This document shows, piece after piece, positions 21,480 to 64,000 of a DNA stretch of 64,000 nucleotides (position 1 is the stretch's first letter; each line of letters opens with the position of its first letter). Source of the DNA: Pisaster brevispinus (Eukaryota > Echinodermata > Asteroidea > Forcipulatida > Asteriidae); NCBI GenBank assembly GCA_023634235.1, contig JAMKCF010000013.1:17237705-17301704 (forward strand), given 5' to 3'. The position numbers and the translations under genes are program-made. Below the pieces are notes generated by a model, which searched no databases, was not told where the DNA came from, and was given only the letters and a program-made list of their open reading frames with translations.

Positions 21480-21640
21480 GATGAGCACAAAGTCCGAGAC
21501 CCAGATCTCTCTGGGACCGAGACCTCAACATCCAAGACCAAGACCACAAGACAGAGACCACAAGACCAAGACCACAAGACTGAGACCGCAACACCGATAC
21601 TGCAAAATCAAGACCGAAAGAACAAGACCGCAAGACATAC
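21480..21640. repeat. AAGACC-type simple repeat
   Basis: Degenerate tandem array of AAGACCACAAGACC-like units. It produces low-complexity open frames on both strands that are not genes. Confidence 0.7.
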
Positions 21641-28235: not shown

Positions 28236-28244
28236 ATAACAATT

Positions 28245-28585
28245 AAGCACACAGTTTTAAGCAATTAGTTCTTTGTCTTTTTCAAGCACGTGGTTTAAAC
28301 AATTAGTACTTTGTCATTTTTATGAAAATACTTTAAGCACACAGTTTTAAGCATTTAGTACTTTGTCTTTTTTTAGCACATGATTTAAACAATTAGTACT
28401 TTGTCATTCGTATGAACATATTTTAAGCACACAGTTTTAAACAATTAGTACATTGGCATTTTTTGGTATGAAAATATTTTAAGCACACAGTTTTAAACAA
28501 TTAGTACATTGGCATTTTTTGGTATGAAACTATTTTAAGCACACAGTTTTAAACAATTAGTACTGTGTCATTTGTATGAAAATAT
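28245..28585. repeat. Minisatellite with 90-bp then 56-bp periods
   Basis: The word AAGCACACAGTTTTAA recurs at 28245, 28335, 28425, 28481 and 28537, each followed by CAATTAGTAC or TTTAGTAC and a TTGTCATTT or TTGGCATTT stretch. The first two periods are 90 bp and contain an internal half-unit; the next two are 56 bp and nearly identical to each other. Confidence 0.85.
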
Positions 28586-36800: not shown

Positions 36801-39800
36801 TGGGGTTTTTTTTTTGGGGGGGGGTGTTCTGTTGGGTTTTTGGGTTTTTTTTTTAATAGATTCTTCTTCTTTTTTAAGAGAAGGAGGAAACAATAATTTA
36901 AGAGTTTTTCAAATCCAAAATTCAGTAAATACACACCCAAAAAAAACAAGGAAACGGTTCTGGTCTTGTTAATTATTTGTGGTTCAATGAAAGCTAGGTC
37001 TAAGCTCTCTGGTTTTATAGTGGAGACCTCCACCAAGCCGAGTCCTACTACACTAGACAGGGTATGTACTGAAAACCATAACACCTCACACATTTCAAGT
37101 TTACCTGGAATACATATATGTTCAAATTGATGCCAAATGCCAAATGTTCGTTGAAAAAAAGAAATGAATAAAAAGCAACTACCAAAAGACCAAAAATAAC
37201 AGGAAAAGGAACCAATTGCTTAGAAAAAGGAAACATGTTTCCCTATGTTTAAAAGATGTGCCCAACTGATAAATCTAAAACACTGCTTCCCTGGAAAAAA
37301 AAATACTTGGGAATGTTGGTTTGGGGTTTTTTTTTAAATCTTTGTTTAATTGTGATTTTTAATAGGATGAAAAGTGCATGCAGATAAGATTTCAAATTAC
37401 CGCAGGCAACACGTTGCCTACATATTTCTCACCCAAAAATTAAATGTGTGAACGTGATAAAACTTGTTGCAGACTTAATTTTGTTTGTGATTTTGTTTTT
37501 ATCAGAAAAACTGATTGATTAATGCAAAAACTTTGCTGTTACTTTTGTTGCTGTTTGTTTATTTATTGTTATTATCCCTCTACCTAAGGCATGTCAAGAA
37601 CGTAAATACTGGATTGCGTTAGGGCCTTCGCACAGTCTGCAAACGTATTTATTTGTTTAGCAACTACTACCAACAAGTAGTAAGCAAAACCAAAACGGTT
37701 GAAGACAACTCAAACCCAAGACATCTGGCACCCTTTCATATGTGATACACATCATTTACAATATATACAAATATTTATGTGTAAATACAAACAATCAAAA
37801 ACAAGTTCAACAAGTTAACATGCGACAATGGAGAATTACTAAATAAACAGCAGATGCAGTTGTAAATTTAAACGTCATCATCGTAACTGTAAACATCGTC
37901 ATCGTCGCCGTCTGCAATGTCATCGACCTCGTCATCACCATTGCCTACATCGTCACAGCCATCATCGTCATCGTCATTATCATTGCCTTCATCGCCGTTG
38001 TCATCATCGTTCATCATCGCCGGTGTCGTTGTCATTGTCATCATCGTTCATCATCGTCGCTGTTGCCATCATTGTCATCGTCACCATTGTTTTCATTGTT
38101 GTTGTTGTTATAATCTTTTACCTTAGCCTTTACTTCCGTCCAGTCCTCATCCCCTTCCCAACAGTATTGCAGAAAGTAGTCCACCAGGAGTTTTTTATAC
38201 TCTGCTTCCACTCCCCGGTCTGGTATCCATGTTATTAGCAGTGAAGAGACCGACTTATTCTGGACCATAATGTATAATGGCGGATTGGGTATTGCTGCAT
38301 GTATCAAGGCACAGAAGAGGAGTTTTTCAAAATAATTACATTTTTAAAACATGATCATTAAATGGTGATAATGTGATACTAAACTTGTGTTGATATAGAC
38401 GCTATCCTTGGAGCACTTGGCACCATACCATTCTGAAGGCCTTGAAGAGACATCTCGACTAAATTGGTACAACTTTGAGGGTACAGATCTACTGCTGAAG
38501 ATGCACTCTCAGGAACAGCAACGATCCTGAGCAAGACCCTCAAGGCTGCAAGGTGTAGCCCGAACCAAAGAGTTACAGGTACAAAGGAAAATAAGATCTT
38601 TCGATGACATCAGAACATAATAATAATAAAAATAGAAAGATAAGAAACTATAAGATTATCAACTAATAAACCACAAGGGAAACTGACCAAATTTTAAAAT
38701 AATTTGTGTTTGAACAAAGAAAAATTGACTGGACCGGGACTTGAACCAGTGACCTCCAGATTAACGTACCGGTGCTCTACCAACTGAGCAACTTTTTAAT
38801 AATAAATATCAAGTAATAAACCACAAGGGAAACTGACTGGGTCAATTTTTTTTTAATTTGTCGCATCCCCTTAAGGTGATCTCGTGGCTGCCGCTTCCCA
38901 GGTTGTATTGTAAACTTGGGTGTGATCCCTGGCTACACAGCAGCTAACAGTTGAATGGCTTCTGACTGGCGCAGCCCCCGTATTGACTATTAGGGAGACC
39001 GCCAACATAGGGCTGGATAGCTCAGTTGGTAGAGCGCCGGTACGTTAATCTGGAGGTCGTTGGTTCAAGTCCCGCTCCAGTCAATTTGTCTTTGTTCAAA
39101 CACAAACTATAAGTTTGGCACAACTATGAGGGTAGCCGTCTTGGAGGGTGATACTCACTTGAAAGTGGCAGAGATCCTGCACAGACGCTTTAGATCTAAG
39201 GTCACGGGAAGCTTTACATCAGTTTGTGCACAACATTTGAACGCGCAAAAATGGCTTCAGCAAGCAAAACAAAACAGCACTTTACAAAGAGTTTCCTTGG
39301 TCAATCCTTCAGTAGCTACAAACAATTTACATAAAACTGTCTTCTTTTATCTGAAAGCTTGTTTCAGCTTCGTTTAATCAATATCAGCTATATGATGCAA
39401 AGGTCGCAAACTAAGTGATCAGTGACTATCTAAATTAGCAATGTTAGAATTGGTTTTGTTCTGGCAAATGGTAATATACACTTTCAAAGTAAAGGTTTTT
39501 CTTTTTGAAAAAAAGTTGTGTTTTTTTCCAATCTATGCGCTCATTTCCTCATGGTAATAAACATTGCTAGTGATAAATTAAACCCCTGATGCTGCTTTAA
39601 ATGATACCGAATAATAAACAGGCAAAAGGAATAACTTACTCTCTGTAGCAATATTAAAGTAGAGTTCTTCTGAGAGCTTTGTGTAGTTTGCCCCGAGAAG
39701 ATTTGTAGAAATGACTCGATATCTGGCACCCATGCTTTGGTTGTAGCATTCAACAGAACATGTGGTTTGATTGCAAATAGGTGACTTGGACGAAACACCC

Positions 39801-42420
39801 TTAATATTTTCTGTACACACCTTCCACTCCGATTCCCTTGAACAGAACAAAATTATAAGTTAAAATTAATTAACTGTAACTCCCGAGTCCAGTCGCTTTG
39901 AAGTCAACTTGTCTGAGTCACCTGCATTTGAAGTCAACTTGGTCCGAGTCACCTGCATTTGAAGTTAACTCGGTCCGAAGTCAACTCAGTCCGAGTGTCA
40001 ACTCTGTCCAAAGTCAACTTGGTCCAGAATTAACTCCGTCCAAGTCATCTCGATCCCAAGTCAACTTGGACCGAGTGGGATAACAGCGGGTGTTTGGTAA
40101 ATGGAAACGGAACTGCCATCTTTTGCAATTGCGCAGACTTTTTTTCAAGAACATGCTTTTGGCACAGTGTCTCACCTACGCGCCATTCGCTCAACTGTGT
40201 CCTCAGTCAGAAGGTTGCTATGCTGGCCTCCTCGATTCCATGTACAAATGGCGTTATCAAAGTTAGAACTTGAACACTTCAAAGCAGTTGCTGGTTCTGG
40301 AGGTACTGAAATATGAAACATCAAAACATAAAAGTTTAACGTTGAGCTATGATGAGAGGAAATCCTATAACGAGCGAAAACGTTCACAGATTCAAAAGCC
40401 GAGCTTTAATCTCATGTAAGTTGTAGAGTGAAATCCTTTAGACTTCATTCACAAGTCGTGACCTTAAAACTTCTTGATGAGTCCATGGGTTCGAGATGGG
40501 TACCTTCGTGTCTGTTAACCCCAAAGCACACAAACACACACACAAAATTTAGGGCACCAACCACAACAATTGTTTTTGAATTTGTTTTTATGCAAGTTTG
40601 CCCCAAATAAGGCTAAAAGCTACTCACGGTAAACTTAAAGGAGCTACAAGAAGGAAACAATATAACAAATTACGGCATTTTCAGCTGGCTTCATATTTCT
40701 GCTTATTGTTACAGGCCCTACATGTAGACTATACAGAGGAATGTTTGCGCTAACTAACAGTGTAAGCTTTAAGAAAATTGGCACCGATTAGAAATTCTAA
40801 TATGACTTACAACCAACACTGATGTCAATTCTTGCAAATGTCCGAGCCTCAATCAGGGAGCAGGAATAATTACCGCTGTCATCAAACTGAACATCATGGA
40901 GAACTAGAACGGAGGATGTCGCATGTAGGATTGGATTCCGGACTCCAACCAGAGTGGTTTCATTGTGGTACCACTTTATATTGACTGGTGAGAAGTTAGT
41001 CTGGTTGAGCAGTTCCAGACTGCAGTTAAGTCTAACCGTACTGCCTACTAAGAAAGCTTCTCCATCTGAATGCAGCGCTAGGTTAGATTTGAAGATGGAT
41101 CAATTCAAAGTTGTCTCAATTGAAACAGAATCAACCAAATTAAGGAAGCTTTGAGGATCATTAATTGTAGTGCTGCTTAATGGAAATCATGTTATGGAAA
41201 TAGTGAATCGTAATTTTTAAAAAGAACCAGTCACAAACATTTTAGCCAGTTGACTTAAAGGGAAGTTTTAAACACAATTTACATCATTTATTTAGACGTC
41301 GAGCGCTACTGACAAAAAGATCTAGCTGTGACCAATATTCTTGAGTGATCTGGCGTACATTGGCATTTGCACTATTTTAAAACGTAATGTGGATGGGTTC
41401 AAAGGAAATGACAGTTGCAGTTGGGCCATCCTGGCTAAACACTCATTGCTATCGGGACCAGTCCCAACTTTGGACCATGAACATTTTGTTCCGTCCCAAC
41501 TTGACAGTTGTCCCAACTTGAGTGTTAAAGTTGGGGTGCCCAACGGAAACCAGTCATCTCGCCCCCCGGCAAAGTCGCCCCCACAAAGTCGCCCCCTGCA
41601 AAGTCGCCCCCAGCAAGCTCGCCCCCTCCAGGTACAAAGTTGCCCCCTAACAAAGTCGCCCCGACACAGTCGCCCCCTTGGTTGATAAAAGGATTGTATG
41701 CGGTGGGTCGTGAATACCACCAGAGTTTTGTTTTCCTTTTTGCTTTGCCATTTGTGAATCAGATTGCTGCGTTCTTTAAAGATACTTTGCTTGTGATTTT
41801 GTTTATCTCTGGTTTTTTTTAATACTATACAGTATATTTTTGTGAGAAATCTTTTATGTTTATTAAGTAACTGTTAAGCTTTGTTGATTTTGTACGTTAT
41901 GGCTTTTATTACAATTTAATTGATGTACATTAAGTACTGATTCCAAAGGCAGAATTTTTGTCACACAAAGTTTGTTTAAATTATAATGTTTCTTGAATTT
42001 CTTTTTAAAATTAAAGACCGAGTTAAAAACAACAAAATTTCCCCTTAGAAAATCATTGCAACAATAGCAAAAGAATGCATAGGGGGCGACTGTGTCGGGG
42101 CGACTTTGTTAGGGGGCGACTTTGAACCCAACTTTAACACTCAAGTTGGGTCCAGTCCCAACTATAGTTGGGACGATTGTCAAGTTGGGAGGGAACAATT
42201 TTACTTACTTCAGTTCCGGGTCTACATAATCGAACAATCCACAATGTTAATAACAATAACATTTAACAGTACTGTTTTTAATCTTTTATTAAGCTGCCAA
42301 CTTAATGCCCTCGTTCGGTCTTTATAGTGACGTTAGTACATAACAACAAAACTTACATAAATTTGCCAATGTTTGTAGAGTTAGAAGACAGCCAAAAATG
42401 ACATAAATTGAGGCAAACAT
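30824..42420 (-). CDS. gp130/Domeless-like class I cytokine receptor
   Basis: Eleven coding exons join in phase on the minus strand: 42420-42357, 41065-40811, 40305-40176, 39836-39640, 38294-38122, 36669-36516, 35647-35562, 34629-34497, 34306-34205, 32589-32447 and 32101-30824 (2715 nt, 904 aa; human gp130 is 918). Order: signal peptide 1-20; Ig domain 22-106 (C36, W53, DDSGNYSC ending at C90); FN3 107-215 opening LPPEPATALKC with the C-x9-C-x-W signature C117/C127/W129; FN3 216-325 in which the WSXWS site is degenerate (YSGVA, 313-317); FN3 325-431; transmembrane helix about 438-459; Box1-like FPDFQLPP at 469-476; acidic tail 480-904. The tail has LNYITV (Tyr818, ITIM/SHP2-type) and YIDQ (Tyr874, YxxQ STAT-type). 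Known family role: dimeric surface receptor signalling through JAK and STAT; the ligand is unknown. The first exon was chosen because it gives a signal peptide and a phase-1 donor. Earlier non-coding exons may exist. Confidence 0.88.
32611..32956 (-). mobile_element. SINE with tRNA head, AGCGCT core and ATT tail
   Basis: On the minus strand the tRNA-like head (about 32956-32870) carries TGGCCGAGCGGATAAGAGC (box A) and GGTTCGAATCCTGG (box B). The body ends with AAAGCGCTATATAAGAATCG and an ATT-rich tail at 32637-32611. The head type differs from the SINEs at 38700-39100. It sits in receptor intron 9, its tail about 20 bp before the acceptor of exon 10. Confidence 0.8.
34731..34920 (-). mobile_element. 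tRNA-derived SINE copy in receptor intron 7
   Basis: Minus-strand head with TAGCTCAGTTGGTAGAGCGC, then AGAGGTCACAGC and a decayed box B, plus the TGGCTTCCGGCTGG body. It directly abuts a hairpin MITE at 34931. Confidence 0.75.
34931..35127. repeat. Hairpin-type MITE, GGGCCCAATTTCATAGAGC family
   Basis: CCCAATTTCATAGAGCTGCT at the left and AGCAGCTCTATGAAATTGGG at the right are perfect inverted complements. This is the best-preserved copy of the family in the window. Confidence 0.85.
35266..35550. repeat. Tandem duplication of a ~150-bp segment
   Basis: CAGTTTCCCTTGTGGTTTA starts two copies at 35266 and 35416. Both contain GAGATAAATGTGATCAGGAAA and a TGATAGTGGCA segment and end with TTTTTAAGTATAAAA. 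The leading word matches SINE tails elsewhere (38815, 45105). The second copy ends about 12 bp from the 3' edge of receptor exon 7. Confidence 0.8.
35975..36365. repeat. MITE with CGTTCAGACA ends
   Basis: Left end CGTTCAGACACAGTAC and the inverse complement of the right end, CGTTCAGACAGCACGG, share ten exact terminal bases and then match partly. A GGTTTAACTC word follows at the left and is mirrored at the right. It lies in receptor intron 6. Confidence 0.6.
37872..38110. repeat. ATC/GTC trinucleotide microsatellite
   Basis: Degenerate (ATC)n/(GTC)n tract ending in TTGTTGTTGTTAT 11 bp from the 3' edge of receptor exon 5. If the intron were retained, translation would add an Asn/Asp-rich tail before a stop. 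Confidence 0.85.
38660..38835 (-). mobile_element. tRNA-derived SINE copy
   Basis: Minus-strand box A-like TTGCTCAGTTGGTAGAGCAC and box B-like GGTTCAAGTCCCGG are both intact, followed by TCCAGTCAATTTTTC. The tail word AAACCACAAGGGAAACTGAC is present at both ends, which suggests a duplication of the tail. Confidence 0.8.
38860..39108 (+). mobile_element. tRNA-derived SINE copy, plus strand
   Basis: The tRNA-like segment at 39016-39090 has TAGCTCAGTTGGTAGAGCGC and GGTTCAAGTCCCGCTCCAG with a readable anticodon region, preceded by body sequence (GTGATCCCTGGCTACACAGC). It is inverted relative to the neighbour at 38660-38835. The head keeps both promoter boxes and is the most tRNA-like sequence in the window, but it lacks a clear acceptor stem. 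Confidence 0.75.
39893..40080. repeat. Degenerate tandem repeat, GAAGTCAACTTGGTCCGAGT unit
   Basis: Eight to ten imperfect copies of a unit of about 18-30 bp built from AAGTCAACTTGGTCC and GAGTCACCTGCATTT. It lies in receptor intron 3, just upstream of exon 4 on the gene strand. Confidence 0.8.
41485..42200. mobile_element. Foldback element with long internally repeated arms
   Basis: The left arm (about 41485-41681) and right arm (about 42078-42200) are inverted complements: each carries GTCCCAACTTGACA-like and CAACTTGAGTGTTAAAGTTG segments and the segment AACAAAGTCGCCCCGACACA. Within the left arm the motif AAAGTCGCCCCC is tandemly repeated about six times. About 400 bp of AT-rich spacer separates the arms. 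It lies in receptor intron 1. Confidence 0.8.
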
Positions 42421-45130: not shown

Positions 45131-48100
45131 CTTTTTATGAATGAAGTTGACCGAATCAAACCAAAGAGCAAGGACTGGTCTCTGTCCTTGATTTATGGTC
45201 TGACATGCGTGTCGTCACGGTGACGCATCCAGGATATCGTTTTGATGGATCTGTGGATATACTGCCTTCACTAGCTTGGGTTGGCAGGGGCATGTTGATG
45301 GGTGTTTGTTATGACACATGTGGAGTTGTGTAATGGCAAAGGATTGGGCCAAAAACCTATAGCCCCGGCTTCCCTTTTTCGAGCCCCACAATTTCTTGTT
45401 ACGTCACTGTATTGTTGTTACCAGTGGTGGGAACTTTTAAGCATATATGACAATGTTTAAATGCAAATGGACTTTAAAAGAAGAAGACAAAACACAGGGA
45501 AAGGGACGAAAATAAAAACACTAATTCTAATCAGAAATCAATGTTCCTCGTTTTCCAATTAAATCGATTTCTTTTAAAAGGCCTATCAATGTCACAAATC
45601 AAAATTAAGCAAGCGTTTAAAATAAATGTTGTCCTGTTTTGTGATTATTTATCCGGCTTCCGTGTAAATTGTTCGTGTCACTAGTACGTTTCTATAGTTC
45701 GCCACATGCATATAATATTTGTTATCATGTACCCACGATGTACAGTACACATGTACTCAATTGTGGCAACATTGAAATAAATGTATTATCTATCTAATAA
45801 AAATTAGGTTTGAAATTTACGGTTCGCGTTGCAATAGGTTGGATCTGCTCACTCAGCCAACGACTATGTAAATAACTGGTTTATTATTTTGTATTTTACT
45901 TATTTATTTTTATTTTGTGGGTTGAAGATTTGAATCTTTTCTCCCTGTTATCAGAATGTTATCCGATTGATTAGATTGATTTGACATGGAACAAAGAAGT
46001 GGCATTCATTTATATTCTTTCTTTTTCACAAACGAACTGTCGACTTCACCTCCAAGATCTGACTCGGAGATTGATCACTCGCTTTCCCACATCGCGTCCC
46101 CTCCGAAACAGAATCCTCCATGATTCCTTCCCACCAGTCAATTAATTCTGTTTTCTCTCTCCATCTTAAATTAAAGCAAACGCAACCGTGAAGCTTTTTC
46201 TTTGCACAAGAAGGCTTTCCAAAGAAAGAAAAAAAAGCCTGCTAAGTCCAGTCCTAAAGCCCTTTTCTATACAGAGCATGTTGGGGACTTTGTTGAGTAT
46301 TTGAACTGGGGTCCGTGGAGCGTTGGTCTGCGTTGGGGTTTGCCGTATCCTGGGCGACACAATCGGGCCTCACTTGGTGTGGCATTGTTATGCGTAAAGC
46401 ATCTAAAACCGGATTAGTATGAATTCCTGTGATAGATAATTAACACTGGGGTTCACTAGCAATTGTTGCCGGTCATCTAAATCCCGCCCATTTTGGCCCG
46501 GTTGTGTGACTGGATGCAGCGTCCTGTAGAAGACACCACTTCTACTGATGCGTAGCCGTCGTCACGCATATACATTGTTCATTGGGTCAAACAAAACACA
46601 AAGCTTAACTAATTTGAATGTCAATCGTATACGTAAAACGCCCATAATACACAAACGATGTATACAATGGACCGGTGGAATGCTGCATCGTGAGCATACT
46701 CCATTTGCCCAGTGAATAGGAAACCTCACTAGTGACTGGCATGGCACCTATTCACTTGTTGAAACCGAATGGAATCGAAATCCACCCAGCCGTGCAAATT
46801 TAAAGGTGGGTAAGGGGTGCGCACTGTGGCATTCTCGGCGTGGTTCCGAAATGGGCACCATCCCATGTATTGGTGGTCGCTGTTTGCAATCAAGGATGCC
46901 CGAAACTTGACCTGGCCAAGAAACCCACCGGGCTGCAGCACCTAAAGTTTACAACAACTCAACCCCTCATTCGTGTTACACCAAGAGAGCAGACCAGACA
47001 GCATAGCCGACTCTTCAGTTCAGTGGTGAGTATGATGATTGAAAGTTGATTTGAATTGATTAATGGGATGTGTCATCTGATCCTTCTTCCCCTGCCCTCG
47101 CCGATGTTTGTTGCCCCATTTTTTACTGAAGTTCCCGATTAGACAATCCTATCAACAACGAATTGAATTTTGATTTTGTTTTATCTTGTACCATCATCAG
47201 TTGCATTTATTGTCAAATTTTCAACTATGTATTGCCCTAAGTTAATAACAAATGAACGAAGCATTCGTTTCCAACTAGTGATACATGTATCATACGACAA
47301 AAGTTCAATAATCTATTAAAAAATTCCAAACGAAACACCATCATGGAATGTGAAGCATGGACGATTTTTATTAATTCCTTGTTGACCTCCATTACTTTAC
47401 GTACGAGCTTTAAGTGCGGTGTGAAGCTACACCTGTGTATGTGACCACCATCGTGGTAGTGGTACGGCATGTTCACTGACCCGATAATATGAATTCATAT
47501 AAAGTAGCCTATTGTTCAGCCTTTGTCAGTGTCTTTGAAAAAGAATCTCATGAAAAGAATAACTTGAAAATCTCATGAAAATAAACGCAAGTCACTGCTA
47601 ACGTTATCTACCGTAAATATAGGTAGAGTGTTCTCTAGTCTTAGCTTCGTTAGGCCTATATGTATTCGATGTTTAAACATTTCAGGTTTAGTTTGCGATC
47701 CAGGTTTTAACATTTTGTCTCCAAATTCTTGCGAAATGCTCTTTTCAGTTAATGCATGGAGGAAATTGAAAAATATCCTCCATGTTTAAAATATTTATTT
47801 CAACAACCTGTTGCATAATCACAAATGAAGACACTCGTCAAACTCGAGTAAGAACGTTGTTCTTTTCACAAAGTTCAAGTTTCATTTTTAGTCGGCCAAT
47901 AATTGTGAGTATGACATTGCTTGTTGCTGCGGTTTTTTCCCGCCAATTTAACATTTTCTCAGAAATTGTTTCCACACGTGCATTGTTGGTTGGTGATCAG
48001 TCACAACCAATCGTTGCTGTGTATAGCTCTATGGTACAATCGTGTTTTGTATACCTTCAGTCAATACGCAAGCAATGGGTACAAATGTTAGTTACGTAAC

Positions 48101-49233
48101 GTCTTATCTTCACTTGTTGGTGGAGGGTGACTCGGTCGATTTGGAATGGGAACATTGTCACGAACCTCAAGACCTGTGCTTTGGGATGAAAGCATGTTGC
48201 ATGATAAGACTATGATTATAGAGAAACCATAGAGCAAGGAAAGGCAAGATGAACACGATGAAGGTCTGGTAGATCGGATCACCTATCACTAAAGTGTATC
48301 AAAGATTACTATATATTTTGTCAAATTTATGTTATTGTTGATGTGTGTTGATGACCTGTGCTATTAATAAGTTGTTAATTCTTACCGGAATGAACGACTA
48401 TGCACTAAACGTGGCGATACTCAAATCAATAAGGTAAATAAGCCACGCAACGTATTTTTTAAACCGACCTGTATTGTATACATAAAACACACCCCGGCTT
48501 ATCTTTATCGCAGTGCAAAGAAACCTTTGGTCCACAGGTAAATGCCGTGGATATTCGGCCTTCTCTAAGCGTTCCGTACGAGAGCATTTCGACTGTGGTA
48601 AAATCATGGTGGCATACCAAGGTCAGTTCACACACGGGTTAATTTCAACACAACTTGATTGTGTAGGTACGTATATACTGTACACTGTGTAGAGTAAGGT
48701 ATTTTTGTTGATGAACCAGAAAGGCTTTTAGGCTGTGTTCAGTGAGCTGAAATACCACATTTTCGGAAGTACTACTCAGAACTATCAGATAGTGTCCTTG
48801 CCATGTGATCAGTTAAAATTGTCTAGTACATTTTGCGGTAATTTACTTGTTTAACAATTACTTATGCAGGCATTTTGATGTACATACCAAAGTAGCTGTA
48901 CATATGATCATATCTCTTTCAAACTCTGCCCAATATTATCAACAAGAGCAATGCTTTCACCGGCAGTTTAAACATCATTTAGTGTGTTGTTTTTTACTGA
49001 ATGGCCACCGAGCTAATGGACATCTAATAGTATGGGTTCTAATTGACTTGTACAGTCGCTTGCACCTTATGAAGTCTACACCCATCATTCTTAATTAGAT
49101 CTAATCAATGTACGAGTTACCGGGCATTTCTAATGGGTTGTTACTATACCAACTGGCCGTTGCTGTGAGGCAATGTGATACCTGAGGCAAAGTGATGCCC
49201 ACGGTTGGATACTTCATCTTTGCGTGCCAAATT

Positions 49234-49316
49234 CGAGTGTCAAAGAGGCAAGATGTTGGCATAGCTGTGTGGTGTTAACTTTCAGCTGTGCCCACGTACT
49301 GCCATTTTGTTTCTCG
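49234..49316 (+). ncRNA. mir-31: miR-31 precursor hairpin, copy 1
   Basis: The 5p arm at 49246-49266 begins AGGCAAGATGTTGGCATAGC, the miR-31 sequence known across bilaterians (seed GGCAAGA). The 3p arm at 49283-49305 starts CAGCTGTGCCC and ends ACTGCCAT. It pairs with the 5p arm apart from a few mismatches, which are typical of this precursor. The lower stem is extended by CGAG and CTCG pairs at 49234 and 49313. The loop is about 15 nt. Copies 2 and 3 follow on the same strand, so the three are probably processed from one primary transcript. Confidence 0.93.
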
Positions 49317-49640
49317 TACTTGCTTCGGGGTCGAGCTACTTCAAACAACCTTCGAACGCTTGAGAGACTCTGAGACGCCATTTTTATGTTCTTCAGTGAC
49401 TTTGACTATTTGTTGTAGCCACCAAGGCTTCTTCCTTGTGTAAAAGAAGCCTCACCTTCCGTGAGTTGCCCGCCATTTTTGTTTGCTCATGCTTATTGCC
49501 AGTGAGGTGTGTCAACATGGCCACGGAGTCTTACGTAACATCATTAGAATTTCAAAGCGGGTATGAATGATGCGTGCACACAGGTACGAGGTAAGGTACA
49601 GTACAAATGGTTGGAGTATTCGCAGGCTTTCTCTCTTCAA

Positions 49641-49725
49641 GATGCAAGTGTACAGAAGGCAAGATGTTGGCATAGCTGTTTTTTCCATTCAGCTGTACCA
49701 ACGTATTGCCATTTGTGCAGTTGTT
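49641..49725 (+). ncRNA. mir-31: miR-31 precursor hairpin, copy 2
   Basis: The 5p arm at 49657-49677 is identical to copy 1 and stays identical for 23 nt. The 3p arm at 49690-49712 starts CAGCTGTACCAACG and ends TATTGCCAT, giving the best-paired stem of the three. The loop is short and T-rich (about 12 nt). Centre-to-centre distance to copy 1 is 411 bp. Open frames crossing this hairpin are incidental. Confidence 0.95.
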
Positions 49726-50245
49726 CTAAACAACTGGGACAGTCGGATAGTTCATGATCCAACCTGTTGCTTCTGTGATTGTAACACCGTCATTGGTTGA
49801 TAGTTAAATTTGTTAAGTAGGCCTACTGTTTAATGTACACAATACATTTTTGTGTTTATTGTTCTAAGAAAATATTTCTCATACTTCCAACAGCGTAATT
49901 GAGACCCGGCCTTGAATTGCGCTCTGCATTGGGAAATTTGTATTTGTTTGTAGAGGAAAGTTTGCATAATGTCTAATGTATTGGGCACACACTTTCCCCT
50001 GCAGTGTTTGCCTCAAAGTGGTTGCTATTGAAATAAGGGTGTGGTTATAAGTGTGTTAATGGGAACGAGATGAGAAATGCTAGCTCGGAAAGGAATTGTA
50101 TTAATGTTCAGGAACTGGCAACAACTAAATGGTGTCTGCACTTGGTTTGTGATATTTTTCGTTTTTGTTTTACAATTCCTATAGATGCTGGGTCGTTTTT
50201 GTTGCTTCACGATGTTTGGATTTGCCGGCGTTATTCTTCATTTCT

Positions 50246-50327
50246 CGAGTGTGGAGAAGGCAAGATGTTGGCATAGCTGTCTTTTTCTACTTTCAGCTGT
50301 GCCTGCATACTGCCATTTACGCACTTG
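50246..50327 (+). ncRNA. mir-31: miR-31 precursor hairpin, copy 3
   Basis: The 5p arm at 50258-50278 is again identical to the other two. The 3p arm at 50294-50316 starts CAGCTGTGCCTGC and ends ACTGCCAT, with different mismatches from copies 1 and 2. The lower stem pairs CGAGTG with CACTTG. It starts 601 bp after copy 2. Flanking sequence is not alignable with the other copies outside the hairpin, so the duplications are old and the 5p arm is under strong constraint. Confidence 0.93.
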
Positions 50328-51305
50328 TAAAAATCACTTGCTTCAACCATAGATGAAGTCGTCAACCTGTTCAAGTTTTTTCTTACTGCAGAGCGTGGGT
50401 CAAACGATGAGGGCGACGTTTGGGCGTGAGGATGACGGCACGTGATCGAGTCATACATTAATTAATACCTGCTTGTTATTTATATTAATGCACCGCGGAG
50501 GTGATTTGTTGCTCCGTGTTAATTTACTGGAACTACACCGTATGAGTATGATGAATAAAATCAAAAATTTGCTGACCTTAAAAGCAAATTTGTGCCGACA
50601 AGTTGGTAGAATCATACGTAGATCATAATAACGTCATATTTTTAGTTTTTTTTTCAAAAGTAATTTGAATAAATTGTATTCCTCCTACTTTTGGGGATAG
50701 CTTTCCAACGAGAAGCCATTCAACTGCACACTGGCTGTTTGGTGGTAGAACTGCGCGTGCACTGTGTGATGATTGCAGGCTGTCATACATGTAGGCCCTA
50801 GTGTACTGTCATTTAAAACCTGGAGTAATTTATGCAGTAGGTCCTTGTCATTTGAATCGAAGGTTGTAGGTCACGCCCGTATGTCCCTTTTCATTAATCA
50901 AACCATTTCATTAGCTACGACATCAGCCGTGCATTATTGTACATGCAAGTACACATTCACCATGCATGTATTGATGTATACCACTCCATGCGTTTTACAC
51001 AGCTTGTTTAATATATATATTTTGTACTCTTCAACCAATGAAAGAGATATATGCGTTAAATGGATAATTCTGTGTTTTAACTTGACTCTCACCATTTCAG
51101 TCATCAACATTCATTATCAGTGCTACGTATTAAAAAGTACCCGATTTTATCGACTAAACGTTTTACAGATGCAAAGTCTGAATTGTTCGCTTTTAATGTT
51201 TGTTGGATGGAAACCATATACTTGTTTTGTTCGCTTAGGAAAATATAGGTCGACTTAATAAAACTCACAGAATCGCAACTTCCACAGTTTTTGATTTATC
51301 ACTAT
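50328..51305. other. Spacer between miR-31 cluster and peroxidase 3' end
   Basis: A plus-strand frame of 161 codons (50773-51258) runs here but has no recognisable domain and no family resemblance; it is judged non-coding. The rest is AT-rich with no repeat that I could name. Confidence 0.5.
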
Positions 51306-51315
51306 TTTATTTATT
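51306..51315 (-). terminator. Polyadenylation signal of the glutathione peroxidase gene
   Basis: Two overlapping TTTATT words on the plus strand read AATAAA on the gene strand, about 255 bp after the stop. Confidence 0.55.
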
Positions 51316-51566: not shown

Positions 51567-54500
51567 TCAAAACTCATCTCGTCTCACAAGGCGTGGGGTC
51601 TGGGTGCTGGCAATTAGAAAGTCATATATTTCTGTAACTCGAGTAGTCGGTCCCCATGCATCGATGACCCTCCCCTGCCTATCGACCAGATACTTCCAGA
51701 AGTTCCAGTCTGGTGCTTGACCACTGGTAGCACCTGTTTTGTATAAAAGTTAGGAAAGAATGCCGTTACAATAACTGAATTATATATATATATATATGGA
51801 TATGTTTGTGTTTGTTCTTGTTTATGCCTCTGACGAAGGTCCGGATTGGATCGAAAGCTAAGGCCATCTCCCCTACTAATAAAAATTATATATATATATA
51901 TATATACACCCCCAAAAAATTGAGTGCATATCAAAACCTGATACCTATAATCAAGGTATATCCTATGCAAGTCTCACGCGAATTCGATACTTTAGTTAAA
52001 CTTTAGTTTATGGATATACATGTTAATATGACATCATATTCTTGGGAAAGTAAAATTTAGCCAGGTAACATAAATTTAACAAACAAGCAAAGAAAACCCA
52101 AGAACCGGTTACTTGTAAACAATTGAGAATTTTGCCCAACTGACGTTCATGGTTTTTTTTAATTTAAAGGAACTTCATACTTAAATACTTGTAGGCAGGA
52201 GCAGCATAATCTCCAATCACGTCAATTTTTCCGAAGATGGGGAAAGTAACCCCGTACGTCTCCCGAGCAAAGGCGATTATTTCCTCGTCACCCTTCGGCT
52301 CCTGTTGGCCAAATTGATTACAAGGAAATGCTAGAATGTGCAATTCTTCATCTATCCCTGGTTGTTGACTGGCCCACACAAGATCCTCATAATGGCTTTG
52401 TGTGAATCCACACTCACTGGCTACGTTGACAACAAGAGCTGGCTGTTAAAATAATAATAATAATAATTAACGACTTTGGATTCTTATTTGTGAAAGCTGT
52501 TAATGTTTTGTGTAAAACTGCTGAAAAATCATATCGAGCTGTCTGTATTTGACAGAAAAGTGTACTTCATAGAACATTCCCGAAATTTGTCAGACAACTT
52601 TTGGCAGATGGTCTCTACATTCTGACGTGTAGGCCTAGATGTATTACACAATTGGCTTAATCCACCATTTCGGCAGAGCAACGAAACTAGTGTGAAATTT
52701 TAGGGCAGGAGAGGGAACGCAGTTTTACCTAGAGGGCACTTGTGGCCAAACAAAACTGTAGTTTCCATTTTCTTAGACATGCCCCTTTCCATGAACTATT
52801 TTATAACATTATGTGACGTGGAAGTAAAAACAAATATACTGTCCGTGTGTAGGCCTAAACACAACATCGTTTCAAAAATACTTGAATTACTAAATAAAAG
52901 CTTATACAGTGTACACAATGTACATTTATCTTGGACTATACAAATCTAAAAAGTCAACAATTTCAAATGGGGGACCTGGACATTTATGGGGGTGGGAGTA
53001 TACGAGCCCCGGCCGGCCCCGTGATCCCTCCCCGCGTCTCGCCGCCGTTTTTGGAAAAGGTTCAGTCAACTGTAAAACTCGATGCTGAAGTTTTGGGAAT
53101 ATATACAATTCTTTTAGATGCTTTAAAATGACACATATTTTCCTTCATGCAAATTTCATGTTAGATGAAAGCAAATTTAGTAGGCCTATGTATAGATGGG
53201 GATTTCACATGACGGGTGGGTTAGCTGTTGTGATTCACTGTTTGTCGTGGTACTTATCAATCCAAGGTTATTTCCTATTTTGTCTTTACAGCCCCCATAC
53301 ACCACCGTAAACTGCTCCAATTGTAACCCCAATCAACTGACGAATACCAGTCAACAAAGAAACAAAGACCACCGTATAGACATTTTAATTTCCCTAACAT
53401 CTACTTATGAAAGATGCCTCCACGCAAACAGTCACGACTTGAGTTGGTTGGCCCAATGCAAAATGCGTTCGAGATCAGATTTGATGAACTTGCAAATACC
53501 TTGGCTTGCTGGTCTGGGTTGCCCCTAAGTCTAAACCCGTAACCTCCCAGATGTTACAATCCAGGATGTTCATACACTCTTAAACCCCGAAATATAACAC
53601 CTGGTTTGGGCATAATGTGTCTATCTCTTCTTCTTCCTTTTTTTCTGATGCTTTACTTCTTTCAAAAAGAATTCATGGCTGAAGCAGATTTTGAAAAAAT
53701 CCTGAAGTTGGAGAAAAATCCATAGAAATTAAATATCTGCCAGCTCTGTAGTCATTGGAACAAAATAACTGACATTGAGATGCCAAACAATAACATCGAG
53801 TCTAAACCTGCGTTTTGAATAGGCTACGTATTTTGAAAAAGTAACGTGAAAAACTTATTCAAAGGTAGACCCAGTACTGGGGCACTGTAGGCCTACTCCC
53901 GCAGATGTCAACATTTTGAAAAATCAGATGCCCCAGTTACTGGGTCTTCTTCAAATCAAAGGCAGTTTTAGTGCAAGATACTATTTTGGGTAAACTTTCT
54001 CATGATGCGAGTCAAACTCTACGCATTGAACTTTCACAAGATTTGAGATGCCTCTGCTGTAACATAACCAGTTAGATTAATTAGATAAATCGTTTTGTCA
54101 AGTGTTTGTATGTAATTGAACAAAAATAATCAATTCTAAATATTGTTATTTGAAATACTTGTAAGTTGTACTCACAATGACTTTTCATCGTGACCTTTTC
54201 TTTTCATTCTTGTATATAAATGTATTTTTTAAGTCCTCAAATGTATTTTCCTTCCTCTCTCTAATGCAGCAAATACCCCAAATACACGCATAAGAAATTG
54301 CATAATTATAATGTTCCTACCTACACGGCTAAGTCAAGGAGGAATGTTATGTTAACACCATAAACAGATCAAAAATAGGGGCGGGCTCGGTAAAAACATG
54401 GCGGTTGAAAACAATTAGTTTATAGTTTATAATCATTCTGTACCACCTATTTAGTATAGCCTACTTATTCCATGTAAAACCCAAGAGCTCTAAAGAATGG

Positions 54501-56379: not shown

Positions 56380-59300
56380 ATGTCGCAGTTCAACTTTGAC
56401 TCGGATATCAACAGCCTGTTGAGGTTAGACGGTCCAACCGGGGGTCCAGCAATGCGTTGGCAACGTAAGGCAACAGAGACATCAATGTGCAATAACATCT
56501 CCATGAACAAGAGCATGAATAAGAGTCTTAATAAAAGCCTCAACAAGAGTCTCGGCAGCGTCTCACCGATGAAGACATCCAATCAGTCCTTCAGCTCAAA
56601 AACACCGTCTAAGTCAAAGACTCCCAATGGAAAGAAGAGCAAAACTCCAGGTACACAACTCATTTATAAAGGATCAAAACCAAGACTTGTAAAGTTGTAA
56701 GTTCACATGTGGTGAAGACCCAGTAACTGGGTCGCTGTACTCCTTTTTCCAAATTTTTTACATCTTCGGTAGTAAGACCGAAGATGTCAAAAGTTGACGA
56801 AAAGGAGTACAGCACCCCAGTTACTGGGTCTCCTGTGTAGTGCATGACTAGTTGTGATAATCATACAGTAGCAAGTAGTAACCAGGGCTAATTTTATGGC
56901 TCTGCTTACCGTAAGCAAAGAATCAGTGCTTATTAACACGTTGACTGCCGCCTACGAGAATATTCGTAGTAACAGGTGTAACGGATTCTGCCACTACGAG
57001 TATACTCGTAGAGAATAAAAGGCTTTTGTATTGTTAATTGAACACACTGGCATCACTGAGAACGCAACAAATACGCTTCTGGCAGTGGTGAGGACATACA
57101 TCCTGAGAATTTGTATTACAACAATGTAGACACAAAAAAGTGTAACCTACTTGGTATGCACGCATGCGCGCATGCGCACCACTCTTGGCAAATGGGAACG
57201 CCCTACGAATCTATGACCGGCAGTCAACATGTTAAGGAAGCAGGGAATTCTGTGCTTACATCAAGCGTATTTCACAGGTTAGCAGGGATTGTTTGCTTAT
57301 GTGAGCATGCGTACGTACTCCACATTACTTGGCATTCTTCACCTACACAGCTAGCGCAGAAGTTCGGCGCTTGCCCTGTAAGCGAAGAATGGTGATCGCA
57401 AGCACAGAATTCAGTGTAAAGCAGAGCCATGAAATTGGGCTTAGCTTAGTCTCTGCACAAGAACAGCTTTATCAAGACTAAGCCTTTGAAATTCAGTTTG
57501 AAACTTCCATTTGTTAATGTTGAATTTTAGAGGATCAATTTTAAGGGGTGCCAACACTAAGGATAATGTAGGTGTTGATTGCTGATTGATACATGAAGAA
57601 CTACGTTAACAAACTTCACCTCCATTGTTTCTTGATCTAGGTAAGACACCTTCCAAGTTACCCATCGGTGATCGCTTCATTCCTAATCGCAGTGGCACAA
57701 ACTTTGACGTCAGTGCCTTCAAACTCCAGAACTGCTCCGTAAACCAAGAGAACCAAGCCACACAGAGCCCACAGAAGATTGACTACTGCAAGACGATGTC
57801 TGACAATCTGAATGGAGAACTACTCAATGCTAAGATCTTATCATACAAGTGCAAACCCCCAGATGCTCCTGAAGGTAAAAAATGTCATCTTTGGACCTTC
57901 ACCTTATTTTTATTTATATTAGATTTGTAAAACTTATTTGTTACACATCATCCAACAGCAAAATTTGCATCAATAACAGGACGAAAAGGAAGTGAAAAGA
58001 AACGTTCAGTTTTAAATGTGTGAGGAAAACCACAATAGGGAAGACCAGTGCAATCAGTTAGGGACTGAAAAGCGAATCCACTTGCAAGGCTCGGGTCTGA
58101 GGTGGGATTCGAACCGGGGTCCATAGAGGTGATAGGCAGGCCAAGAAACCACTGAGCCAACCTGATTTATTCAAAAGGCATGCTTGAATTTCAATTAAAA
58201 TTCAACAAAGCATTTTGAATAAATATAATGAAATAGATTAATGTAGGCATATGCCCAGCCATATTTCAAAGTGTTTGGGTTGTAAGTATGACTTTATGAA
58301 AGTGAAACAATAATGAACTGGAAATTACACAAAAGTAGTATTTTATGGAAAAATATACAATCAACTAATACTATAAATTGTGCATGAATTTAAACGACAA
58401 AGGAAAATACAAAGTTCAATGTCCAGAAACAGGAGCATCAAAGTTTGACCACTTCTAAAACCACGTGTCATTCTTACAACAGATTGTTAAAACAAGTCCC
58501 TTTGATAAAGCATACTAGCTCCCTGACGATGTACAGTGAAATGATCAAATCCAACCAAACTTTCCCAAACCACAGGTTTCCAGAACAACTTGAGAGTGTT
58601 ATACAGTCAGACCAAGACGCCAGGCTCAACCAAGAAGTCAGTTCGACATATTCCACAGGTTCCCGAGAGAATATTAGATGCCCCTGATATCCTGGATGAT
58701 TACTGTAAGTCAAGAAGAAAAAAACAATTTTAAGAGTAGACACTTTATTGAAAACTAGTATTGTACTTTTCTTTATAGGAGAATGGCTAAGTCAGGTACA
58801 CGGATATAACAAATTTTGAATTTTAAAACTATTCTCATATTTTAATTATTGAATAAGAAAAATTGTGGAGGTTGGAATGTCATGTTTTTATTTGTTTCTT
58901 GTTTGTTTTTTCACAACTGCGCAGTTACTACTATGTATTCATTTTTGCTGTACATACCTATTTGAGTATATTTTGAATAACTAAGAGAGGTTTGCGGTAA
59001 CTCCATGTGAAAATCTCTTTTGAATATCGTTGGTTCTGAAAAGAACCGGTGGTTAACAGAACCAACACTACTCAAAAGAAATTTTCACATGGTGTTACCG
59101 CAAACCTCTTAGTTATACTTCCACCATGAATCCCACTTATATTTTGAATGAATATCTCATAATTCAGTGGCTTAGCATGTACCTTTCTTCACAAATCATT
59201 GAGACAATAGATATAAGAGCACTAAATGAGACTGATTATTTTTGTAACTATTATTTCAGATTTGAATCTGATAGACTGGAGTAAAAACAACCATCTAGCC

Positions 59301-62300
59301 GTAGCCTTAGCCAATAACGTCTACCTGTGGGATGCCAGCTCTGGTGGTATCAATCATCTCATGCAGCTCGAGGGACAGGAAGAGTACATCTGTTCGGTGT
59401 CTTGGATACAAGAAGGAAATTTCCTGGCTGTTGGGACCAGTTCAGGAGAAGTTCAGGTCAGCATTCACAGTCTTTCTGTCTTAGAAAGCACCCTTTGAGC
59501 GGACGGAGGCCATTGGCCTCTGTTGCCCTTTAAAAGTTTCCATCTCTGGCCGTAGCATTCAAAAACGGACACCAACCCTCAGAGATCCGCTAAGAAACGA
59601 TTCATGCTTGAATCTCAGACTCAAAAGTTTCTGGGTGAAAAATTACTTAAACCATTTTTTGTTCTTTTTTTTTTTTACTTCGAAGGAAATCCTTTCTCTA
59701 AAATGTTATACTATCAACGGCTGCAGTGCTGCCCATTAAGTTCTCAGGCTTTTAGGTTTTTTATGGTAAATATCTTTTGGAGTGTTTACACATCTATCAC
59801 CCTACCTGACATTAGGTGATTAATCAGGACTGTGAATTCAGATTAGTCCTCCTACATTCAATGATTATTATATTACATGTTTTTGTTTGCAGCTGTGGGA
59901 TGTAGCTGCTACTAAGAGGTTACGGAATATGACAGGTCATGCCGCTAGAGTGGGATCACTTGCGTGGAATAGCTACATTCTCAGCAGGTAAGACCTCATT
60001 GTTGGAAGACGATCAACAATTTAAGTCTTATGGTGATCAGAGCAGAGCAAACTGTTCATAATGATGAATAGTACTTATCACGGCATGCAAAGACTACAGG
60101 GCTTGTTGCTCAACATTTTTTCCTGGCCCAGAATTGTTCTAACAAGACCAGACAGTTTAACATGCATACTGGGTTTTTTAAAGGTTTTTTTTACAGGCAC
60201 TATGACATACGGTGTAAGAGAAGATTTATCTCATTTTGTCTTTATGGTTATCAAACTTCATTACTCAATAGAACTGAAAGGTGTTTATCAGACTCACAGT
60301 CAACATTTGTCAACATTTTTTTATAGATATTACACAGTGTGGTTTGTTCCATCTTGTTAAATGTACTATTTAAATAATTAGCAGCAGTCAAACCAAGTTT
60401 CATTTTACGAGTATGCATCATTTCATGTCTCCGCAGTGGTTCACGCTCAGGAGCTATCCACCATCACGACGTACGTGTTCAGAACCATCAGATTGCCAGC
60501 CTAGCGGGGCACACCCAGGAGGTGTGTGGGCTCAAGTGGGCGCCGGATGGTCGGTACCTAGCCAGCGGGGGGAACGATAACCTCTTGAACATCTGGCCAT
60601 CGGCCACACACGGCGATCCTTCTAAACCTGTGCATACATTCACCCAGCACCAAGCTGCCGTTAAGGTCAGTGCTGACATTTAACAGTGGTTCAATTTGTG
60701 AACCGTTTTGGAACCTGTTTTGGAATGTTTACTTTAATGGTGTGTATCCACCATAATAATTGAAAATAATTTTTTGGTTAATGTCTTTTGAAAACTGCTG
60801 TGGAATTCTGCGCGATTCACCACCTGAATTTCAGGTTGTTATGCCTGTAGTTGATCCTTTGGCAGAGTGGTCCTTTCTATTTCATAAACGCCGCTTAAAG
60901 TACAACAAAGCAAAACTAACTTTCTCTTTTAAACAGGTGACTGAAGCAACATTTCAATTCCACTGTGTACACTAACGTTTATGAAATACTTGTGCTTAAT
61001 AAACACATGTTCCTGTTGTAGTTGGTAAAAAAAAAACCATGTTACCAATTAACAGCTTCATGAAATAGCCCATATTGAACAAGTGCCATCTATAAAGTAT
61101 ACTGCAATGCATCTTGGGAAACTGAGTACAATGATCAAGCTACCAAGATGGATGCCAAGCTTTAGTTTACATGAAACTATGCCAGGTTTTGTGGTTGTGT
61201 GCAGCATTGCTTCAAAATCAGGGCACCATGATGGCTGCTGGTGTTGCTTGGCCTCGGATTTCACCCAGAATGCTTTGCGCGTCGATCATGCGCTTTGGGA
61301 CATGCATGGGCTATTGGACCAAGTTTTGAAGCAACAGGAATTTAAGAGGGTTGGGGTTGAAATTACAAGAATCTGACTCTGTATGTGGTTGTCTTTTTAC
61401 AGGCTCTAGCCTGGTGTCCCTGGCAGCCTAGTGTACTTGTGAGTGGGGGAGGTACAGCCGACAGATTCCTCCGCTTCTGGAATGTCAGCAACGGCAACTG
61501 CCTGAACAGCATCGACACTAAATCGCAGGTATTTCATTTTTTATATTTTGATTGTTTATTATGTACAGTCAAGCCGTGTTATAAAGAGCACTGTTATAAA
61601 GAGGTTCTGCTTATAGAGTACATTCTGAAGTCCCAAAATCTCATTTCTGATGCTTCTTTGTTTTGCTGTCCTCTTTTAAAATATGAAAATTCTGTTCCTG
61701 TTATAAAGGGTAATTTGGCCAGTTCAAGCGATCTAGTTATAACGAGAGTGGACTGTGTCAGGATTTGAAGTGATTCTTTCAGATGATATAAGTGTTAATA
61801 TCTAGGAATGACAATGACTCTTGCAAGTGCTAGTTGCATGGTTTTATTCTCAATTATTCGAGTGTGCTCTATTTTGACTTTTTATTTTGTAGTTTATTGA
61901 TCCAGTTATCTTGTCAGTCTCTGGATTCTGACAAGAGCGCCCATGCCGAAACTTCACTCAAAAAACCGATTGTAACGTAATACACAGTAGGCTGGATCAG
62001 GGGTGCGTTTTCGCCGCCGTAACCAACAGCTGTTTCGGTTGACTTGGCCATTGGTTAATCACTGGCCAGTGACCAAAACAGTTATTGGCATGCAACTTTT
62101 CAGCTGATCAGCTGATCTCCTCATTTTTGGTTAACTCGGCTGTAAAATTGATAAAAACAACGTAGACTTCGAAGTCTTTTTAACAAACTGCAGTTGCATA
62201 CCAGTCTGTGCTGAGAGCAAGCAAAACATTTCAAAGTTAAAGGAAAGGAGTACAAGAAACATGGACACACAATCTCATAGGGATGGAATCACACCTACAT

Positions 62301-63150
62301 TTTGTTTTGTCTTTCATTGCGATAGGTCTGTTCAGTTCTTTGGTCCAAAGAGTACCGTGAGCTGGTGTCAGCCCACGGCTATGCACAGAATCAACTCGTC
62401 ATCTGGAAGTACCCAGCGATGACAAGAACAGCTGAACTCCTCGGTATGTCTGTTGATGAGAAATGTGTACACATATTTTAAACATGAGTAAAGTTCTTTC
62501 TGACCTGGGCGAAATGCTATAGAGCTGTTTGTACAGAAAATCTTGTATCATAATGTTTATGCAGTTATGATTGCTCTGAGGCTTCACTTTGTTTTTAAAA
62601 CTGTAATCTTCAAATTATGCAGAGACATGTTTTCAAATATTGTTTGGTTTTACCCATACACCAATGTGTGTAAAACTCGGTAATTCCCGAATCCACTGGC
62701 ATATTACTCAGGTGGGATTTGAATCCACAGCCTTCGTCATTCCAGAGCAGATGTTTTAACACTAGACCACCAAAATTGCCTGGTAGCTAGAGGCAGTTTA
62801 AATCCTTTGTTTTAGCAGCGGGTACCAAAACAATTTAGTAGATGTTATATTTGCATCGGAATAAAGAATACTATTTGGTTTTGCACACATACACTGATGT
62901 TTTCAAATGAAATTTTTGAGCAATAGGTAATTTGTCCACCCTCTTTACCCTCGTAAATGTAGGCCATACCTCGCGCATTCTTCACATGTGTATGAGTCCT
63001 GATGGGTCAACAGTGGCTACAGCTGCAGGAGATGAGACTCTGAGGCTATGGAAGTGTTTTCAGAGTGAAACCCACGGGAAATCAGCAAAGAAGACGCGAG
63101 ACCCAAAAGCCATGTCGGGCACACTCAAACTCAGGCAGAGCATCCGCTAA
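56380..63150 (+). CDS. cdc20: CDC20/Fizzy, APC/C activator
   Basis: Nine coding exons join in phase: 56380-56650, 57641-57874, 58576-58704, 59260-59456, 59893-59987, 60437-60665, 61403-61528, 62326-62443 and 62963-63150 (1587 nt, 528 aa; human CDC20 is 499). CDC20 recruits substrates such as cyclin B and securin to the anaphase-promoting complex and is the target of the spindle checkpoint. Visible elements: C-box DRFIPNR at 101-107; KILS at 155-158 before the MAD2-binding RVLYS at 175-179; a WD40 propeller from about 185 to 500 ([20 protein letters not shown], the HHHDVR and SGGNDNL blades); and the C-terminal IR tail at 527-528. Residues 42-57 are four MNKS/LNKS repeats. The KEN box position reads QEN (126-128) and the CRY box reads VRHIP. 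The start at 56380 is the first ATG after a strong acceptor and gives the conserved N-terminus. Confidence 0.97.
56715..56832. repeat. Hairpin MITE with AGACCCAGTAACTGGG ends
   Basis: AGACCCAGTAACTGGGTCGC at the left and its inverse complement at the right match over about 33 bp with few differences, through CTGTACTCCTTTT. A second, inner palindrome (ACATCTTCGGT and ACCGAAGATGT) sits in the middle. It is in cdc20, just after the first coding exon. Confidence 0.85.
56884..57445. repeat. Older hairpin element interrupted by a TTAA-flanked MITE
   Basis: Left arm GGGCTAATTTTATGGCTCTG and right arm AGAGCCATGAAATTGGGCT resemble the GGGCCCAATTTCATAGAGC family. Between them lies the insertion at 56933-57235. 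It is in cdc20, downstream of the first coding exon. Confidence 0.6.
56933..57235. mobile_element. piggyBac-like MITE with TTAA target duplication
   Basis: TTAA at 56933-56936 and 57232-57235 flank ends CACGTTGACTGCCG and, inverted, CATGTTGACTGCCG (13 of 14 identical). TTAA duplication is the hallmark of piggyBac elements. Inside the left end, GAATATTCGTAG and GAGTATACTCGTAG form sub-palindromes. No transposase is present. Confidence 0.75.
58090..58165 (-). mobile_element. tRNA-like SINE head, second type
   Basis: On the minus strand it contains TTGGCTCAGTGGTTTCTTGG and GGTTCGAATCCCACC, a box A and box B pair with a different head from the GTTGGTAGAGC family. It lies in cdc20, between coding exons 2 and 3. 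Confidence 0.6.
58977..59116. repeat. MITE with ATAACTAAGAG ends, intact copy
   Basis: Left arm AACTAAGAGAGGTTTGCGGT and the inverse complement of the right arm agree over about 35 bp with a 2-bp gap. The centre holds GGTTCTGAAAAGAACCGG. The element is flanked by TA-rich sequence. It is in cdc20, between coding exons 3 and 4. Confidence 0.85.
62705..62790 (-). mobile_element. tRNA-like SINE head, third type
   Basis: On the minus strand it has TTTTGGTGGTCTAGTGTTAA and GGATTCAAATCCCACC, matching tRNA box A and box B positions. It lies in cdc20, between coding exons 8 and 9. Confidence 0.6.
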
Positions 63151-63341: not shown

Positions 63342-64000
63342 ATCTACAGAAGTTAAGAGTAAGGAACAAAAATTAGTTACAAATTATGCCTTGTGGTTAC
63401 TTGTAACCGTAATTCGATCACAAAATGTTTCAACATGGGTTTTTTTTTAATGTGAAAAGTTCCCTTTATATCATTTTCTTCTTACTCTGGTCAGCTTTTT
63501 AACTTTTTAAGTGCCACATGAAGGAAATATATTAATGCCTTTTTATTATTTTGACTGCTGATAACATGTACCATTATTCAATACGGATCAATGTTTCTGT
63601 AGGCTCACTACATATTAATCGTGAACCAAGTATTTGTACTTGCTGCTTGTTCTTTTACAACTTTAAATATCAAGTTATTTATTATAAGAAAAACTGACTG
63701 GATACAATTTTTTTTTTTATGATTTGGGGTTTAACAAAGAAAAATTGGCTAGAGCAGGATTTGAACCAATGACCTCCTGGTTTAAGGTGCTGGTGCTCTA
63801 CCAATGAGCTATCTAGTCCTATGTTGGTGATCTCCCTAGTTTGTCAATATCTTTGTTCAGGGTGCCAGTCAGAAGCCATACTGCCGTGTAGCTACACAGC
63901 ATCTATAACCAGGCAGATCTAGTCAATTTTTCTCTGTTCAACTGCAAATCACAACAAGTGCTGGTTTTGCCTGAACCACACTACTTCAAATATATGTAAC
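63342..64000. other. Downstream of cdc20
   Basis: AT-rich sequence up to about 63680, then the SINE listed separately. No gene is seen before the window ends. Confidence 0.6.
63680..63945 (-). mobile_element. tRNA-derived SINE copy
   Basis: On the minus strand: body with TATGGCTTCTGACTGGCACC, then box A-like TAGCTCATTGGTAGAGCACC, box B-like GGTTCAAATCCTGC, and the AGCCAATTTTTC join. A tail word (AAAAACTGACTGGATACAAT) lies at the low-coordinate end. It is one of the fuller copies. Confidence 0.8.

Follow-up and report, generated by a model that had tools for sequence, protein, structure and literature searches.

Three tandem mir-31 hairpins with one shared 5p sequence in the genome of the sea star Pisaster brevispinus

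The window, that is, the entire 64-kb stretch of Pisaster brevispinus DNA that was analyzed, contains three mir-31 hairpins that lie inside 1.1 kb on the + strand; their 5p strands are identical, and their loops, 3p sides, and flanks have diverged. We are confident, short of certainty, that the deeply conserved animal gene mir-31 has been duplicated locally and in tandem in this sea star to give three functional genes, most likely carried by one + strand primary transcript. The triplet is real and fairly ordinary, an enlargement in tandem of a family already known.

mir-31 hairpin, copy 1: 49234..49316, + strand; fold −39.3 kcal/mol, z −6.75; Rfam RF00661, 62.3 bits; 14-nt loop
mir-31 hairpin, copy 2: 49641..49725, + strand; fold −41.8 kcal/mol, z −8.26; Rfam RF00661, 61.8 bits; 10-nt loop
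mir-31 hairpin, copy 3: 50246..50327, + strand; fold −40.3 kcal/mol, z −6.84; Rfam RF00661, 66.3 bits; 13-nt loop

Position, fold, and family assignment of the hairpins

Scanning the whole 64 kb with Rfam (cmscan) gave five matches above cut-off: two are tRNA-like elements (vide infra) and three are to mir-31 (RF00661), at 49235-49316, 49646-49723, and 50247-50327. All three copies score above the gathering cut-off for this family (51 bits), and in each the match covers model positions 1-83. The 22-mer AGGCAAGATGTTGGCATAGCTG is present three times in the window, compared with 0.00 occurrences expected from 100 shuffles; three exact copies of AGGCAAGATGTTGGCATAGCTGT place GGCAAGA at positions 2-8 of the 5p strand, counted from its predicted 5′ end. 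We take GGCAAGA to be the miR-31 seed, in agreement with the ascidian sequence. All copies are on the + strand with spacings of 411 and 601 nt, inside the few kb by which microRNA clusters are defined.

None of 200 dinucleotide shuffles of any hairpin was as stable as the native fold (0/200 for each). A bona fide animal microRNA hairpin has at least 16 pairs between its arms and a loop of at least 8 nt; here, 18 of the 30 consensus pairs join the two arms and the loops are 14, 10, and 13 nt in copies 1, 2, and 3, lengths that depend on the chosen arm boundaries. The original prediction that three stable mir-31 hairpins occupy one strand of this interval was therefore borne out by both the folding and the family match.

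When 43-56 kb was scanned on both strands as 1300 85-nt pieces (the 20-nt steps were not centered on the mir-31 hairpins), copy 2 ranked first by z, copy 3 fourth, and copy 1 eighth; among 4000 85-nt pieces drawn at random from the window, 10 folded at −39.3 kcal/mol or better. Near-perfect palindromic repeats also occur in the window. Because fold energy by itself does not single out the copies, they are identified by the family match and the fold together.

The + strand is supported but not proven as the coding strand. Considered as candidate antisense miRNAs, the reverse strands fold less stably (−25.5 to −26.6 kcal/mol), and their scores against the Rfam mir-31 model (48.9, 48.4, and 37.9 bits) are all below the cut-off of 51 bits; proof falls short because a covariance model derived from the three copies is matched by the reverse strands too (44.1, 43.8, and 42.7 bits), as is expected of hairpins.

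We found no further copy in the window. The 22-mer search gave no extra match in the window at up to three mismatches; no fourth or decayed copy was detected by a lax Rfam scan of 44-64 kb or by the three-copy covariance model, applied to the whole window or unfiltered to 46-53 kb. Leaving aside the three copies and their reverse strands, the best match in the unfiltered search, at 46703-46764 (14.2 bits, E 0.033), falls in a two-part-stem hairpin at 46690-46775 (+; fold −23.2, z −2.2) and was rejected because the sequence is unlike miR-31. Also rejected were AGGCAAGA at 48242, located in a segment (48230-48320) that folds no better than chance (z +0.75), and two repeats, at 49376 and 49471, with some likeness to the 3p tail, which are not part of a mir-31-like hairpin. 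A short stem of 9-10 bp lies between copies 1 and 2 (z −1.4 on the + strand, −2.5 on the − strand). The exact 23-nt 5p sequence has no match in viral contigs and its 21-nt core has none in prokaryote genome contigs, as expected because these collections are viral and prokaryote.

Constraint and divergence among the copies

The predicted products of the three hairpins are the following; the 23 nt of the 5p strand are identical in all copies, with predicted end positions, and the 3p strands were placed by assuming 2-nt overhangs.

predicted mature miR-31-5p, copy 1: 49246..49268, + strand
predicted mature miR-31-5p, copy 2: 49657..49679, + strand
predicted mature miR-31-5p, copy 3: 50258..50280, + strand
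predicted 3p strand, copy 1: 49284..49306, + strand; register chosen among several candidates
predicted 3p strand, copy 2: 49691..49713, + strand; seed unlike those of copies 1 and 3
predicted 3p strand, copy 3: 50295..50317, + strand

When the copies are aligned by the starts of their 5p and 3p strands, the columns identical in all three number 23/23 in the 5p strand, 19/24 on the 3p side (five differ), 7/14 in the basal 5′ arm, and 4/12 in the basal 3′ arm; in the upstream flank (−120 to −21) and the downstream distal flank they number 6/100 and 9/100, respectively, with 7.2 expected by chance in each. This gradient suggests that constraint tracks the anatomy of a microRNA gene, that is, it is strongest in the guide, weaker in the partner strand, weaker still in the basal stem, and not detectable in the distal flanks. 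If both strands varied equally, the chance of complete 5p identity would be (19/24)^23 = 0.005. Local alignment of the 160-nt flanks gave no score above those of random window pieces in any of six comparisons (p 0.19 to 0.75, against a null that contains a few overlapping window pieces). Because the flanks have lost their similarity, selection explains the 5p identity better than recent duplication does.

The stem is also preserved. The consensus structure has 30 pairs, and standard pairs occupy 94.4% of the 90 cells, a value that falls to 28-44% when the partners are slid by one to three columns. Eighteen pairs are invariant, five vary on one side, three have changed on both sides, and in the other four the sole departures are unpaired cells; the covariation is modest, as three sequences only are compared and three double-changed pairs are also attained in 37 of 500 shuffles. 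Thus, the expectations of the original prediction that the 5p strand would be identical over 23 nt, that loops, 3p arms, and flanks would have diverged, and that the 5p strand and stem would be constrained all agree with what was found. Its further claim that the copies are old is reasonable, because the 160-nt flanks do not align above chance; it rests on this lost similarity and not on dating from other species.

One or two stem pairs are missing from every copy (5/90 cells). As assigned by eye on the alignment, copy 1 lacks two basal pairs and copy 3 lacks one, and copy 2 lacks one basal pair and has a mid-stem C-A mismatch (columns 33/63); the middle of the copy 2 stem pairs differently, with two extra pairs where copies 1 and 3 have internal loops. 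In copies 1 and 2, CNNC motifs are located 17 and 18 nt past the end predicted for the 3p strand; copy 3 has none at 16-18 nt, and a basal UG at −14 is present in copy 2 only. The lost pairs and the missing CNNC could be read as signs that one or two hairpins are active and that the remaining one is a decaying duplicate in which the 5p strand is still intact. However, every copy retains all 23 of the 5p positions and a stable fold even though its flanks align no better than chance, and a dead copy of such age should have drifted in its 5p strand; for this reason, we consider decay of one of the copies unlikely and three functional copies the better explanation.

The full predicted 3p sequences are different in the three copies. 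Their seeds (positions 2-8) fall into two types in three start registers, with copies 1 and 3 alike and copy 2 off by one base; if the 3p strand starts one base further (a 21-nt 5p strand with a 2-nt overhang), all three seeds read from the sequences differ. The earlier suggestion of three different 3p species therefore holds for the full sequences; for the seeds, there are two or three types depending on the start register. The distinct seed of copy 2, and of every copy in the shifted register, would be expected if the 3p arms had diverged through use as different guide RNAs, that is, by functional diversification beyond free drift. Against this, copies 1 and 3 share their seed in the three registers, relaxed constraint, bounded by the need to pair, would account for the divergence, and end stability slightly favors 5p as the guide (a small bias, −5.8 vs −6.4 kcal/mol); we regard diversification of the 3p arms as distinctly unlikely. 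A more elaborate version, to which we attach little credence, is that the 3p arm of the middle copy provides a second functional guide with a new seed and that the three-gene cluster, sea-star-specific or older, amplifies the dosage of one invariant guide. If this were true, the copies would divide roles among themselves, with guides drawn from the two opposite arms of these hairpins.

The 5p identity could also have been maintained by gene conversion between the copies instead of selection on the guide; copies in tandem at distances of 0.4 to 0.6 kb lend themselves well to conversion, and the identity over 23 nt is complete. However, the bounds of the identical stretch are those of the mature miRNA: the bases just before and just after it already differ between copies, as do the loops, five of the 24 3p-side columns, and the distal flanks, which are at chance. 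Selection is preferred because identity stops at the mature edges and the partner strand has changed, whereas conversion tracts would carry neighboring bases with them; we consider conversion very improbable. It is very unlikely that a single mir-31 locus was written three times by the assembly, because no similarity is detected outside the hairpins, the loops, 3p sides, and basal stems of the hairpins themselves are not the same, and the window is free of N.

Genomic neighborhood and other elements of the window

The sequence surrounding the cluster contains two candidate transcript signals and two protein-coding genes.

47498..47530, + strand: possible promoter, ~1.7 kb 5′ of copy 1, with a TATA-like box and an initiator-like TCAnT; speculative
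50554..50559, + strand: first AATAAA 3′ of copy 3 (from a motif list), possible end of the primary transcript; speculative
51567..52445, − strand: glutathione peroxidase gene, 3′ coding part, convergent with the cluster; Pfam GSHPx, 9.7e-27 for 52164-52445
~56380 to 63150, + strand: exons of the Cdc20 gene, assembled by eye from the window

By analogy with known animal microRNA genes, the three hairpins would reside in one non-coding + strand primary transcript; Drosha and Dicer would cut each of them, so that each would release the same guide, miR-31-5p (AGGCAAGAUGUUGGCAUAGCU...), and one transcription event could yield up to three guide molecules. Selection has preserved every letter of the guide and the pairing of the stem, and the loops and flanks have drifted. 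No stop-to-stop open frame of at least 90 aa overlaps 49234-50327. TATA-plus-initiator matches number two on the + strand and four on the − strand of the whole window. AATAAA is also found at 50668 (+), at 51306, 51310, and 51502 (−), and, inside the cluster interval, at 49855 (−). The last coding exon of glutathione peroxidase ends at ~51567 (by eye in the translation), with its stop ~1.2 kb from copy 3; the AATAAA motifs between the cluster and this gene could keep the two transcripts apart, and such motifs are common. The Cdc20 protein from the window is 94% identical to that of Asterias rubens, 85% to Patiria miniata, 69% to the brittle star Amphiura filiformis, and, among sea urchins, 68% to Lytechinus variegatus and 66% to Diadema antillarum. 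These values point to a sea star, probably a forcipulatid like Asterias but other than A. rubens, and agree with the echinoderm origin supposed in the original prediction.

Several other hairpins were noted in the window. A near-perfect palindrome of ~138 nt (58978-59115; fold −85 kcal/mol, z −16.9) is located in a Cdc20 intron; it has below-cut-off matches to unrelated Rfam miRNA families and to the histone stem-loop, and it is possibly a small inverted-repeat transposon (MITE-like). The long hairpins at 56719-56828 and 53861-53945 have a common palindromic motif (CCCAGTAACTGGG / CCCAGTTACTGGG) and may be copies of one inverted-repeat element. The hairpin at 51581-51665 (+; z −5.1), opposite the last glutathione peroxidase exon, has no Rfam match in the lax scan and is probably a chance fold over coding sequence. 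The remaining features are:

39011-39083 (+) and 63746-63818 (−): tRNA-like elements of similar sequence (Rfam)
39883-40074, 41558-41677, 28243-28563, and 21533-21637: minisatellite arrays, units of 14 to 90 nt
30824-32155 (−): 443-aa open frame

ARAGORN accepts the element at 39011-39083, as tRNA-Asn, and not that at 63746-63818; the two may be tRNA-derived repeats rather than genes. For the 443-aa open frame, Pfam gave no match and a protein search that scored 7991 candidates gave no homologue; the frame may be an exon that codes for part of a protein of low conservation.

Comparison with known mir-31 genes

Human has one mir-31 locus, and Drosophila has mir-31a and mir-31b. In the report on the ascidian Halocynthia roretzi (PMC5399378), the miR-31 of this species shares GGCAAGAUGUUGGCAUAGCUG with the window copies and is listed with one locus, whereas the window has three copies in 1.1 kb. 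For the sea urchin Strongylocentrotus purpuratus, passages of PMC3247247 use both the names miR-31 and miR-31b, with miR-31b different by one base at position 11 (embryo vs adult data); the urchin is also an echinoderm, but its two sequences differ, whereas the 5p sequences in the window are all identical. These sources, with one locus in the ascidian and two names in the urchin, lend weak support to the original statement that most animals have one or two miR-31 loci. The same passages of PMC3247247 describe sea star small RNAs at a time when the genome of that star was unavailable, and the relevant part of PMC1388199 reports mir-31 in an early urchin assembly and leaves the copy numbers open. 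In a further echinoderm class, miR-31 was identified in the sea cucumber Apostichopus japonicus by small-RNA sequencing, according to excerpts of PMC5677170 and PMC4526669; the names miR-31a-3p and miR-31b-5p used there are not by themselves proof of separate loci.

A parallel in arrangement is let-7 in Halocynthia roretzi, for which the same part of PMC5399378 describes four hairpins within ~1 kb on one strand of scaffold S93, like the cluster in the window; thus, tandem clusters of microRNAs of the same family are of a known kind. However, the four let-7 mature sequences differ (PMC5399378), whereas the 5p sequence in the window is the same in every copy. Among the literature matches listed, the titles and opening lines of abstracts describe no three-copy mir-31 cluster, and MirGeneDB or miRBase may catalogue it; ‘mir-31’ does not occur in the main text of the MirGeneDB 2.1 paper (PMC8728216). 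An apparent oyster mir-31 in PMC7488030 was rejected because the matches were to mir-315.

The mir-31 triplet provides a clean example, within one genome, of a guide that is fully constrained, an opposite arm and basal stem that are partly constrained, and distal flanks that are not detectably so. The embryonic skeleton is very different in sea stars and sea urchins. In the sea urchin, the portions of PMC11076791 and PMC10312921 that concern miR-31 tie it to skeletal patterning, via the regulator Alx1, and to cell division. The sea star triplet, with its invariant guide, is a natural case for asking whether the dosage of a microRNA has changed as well.
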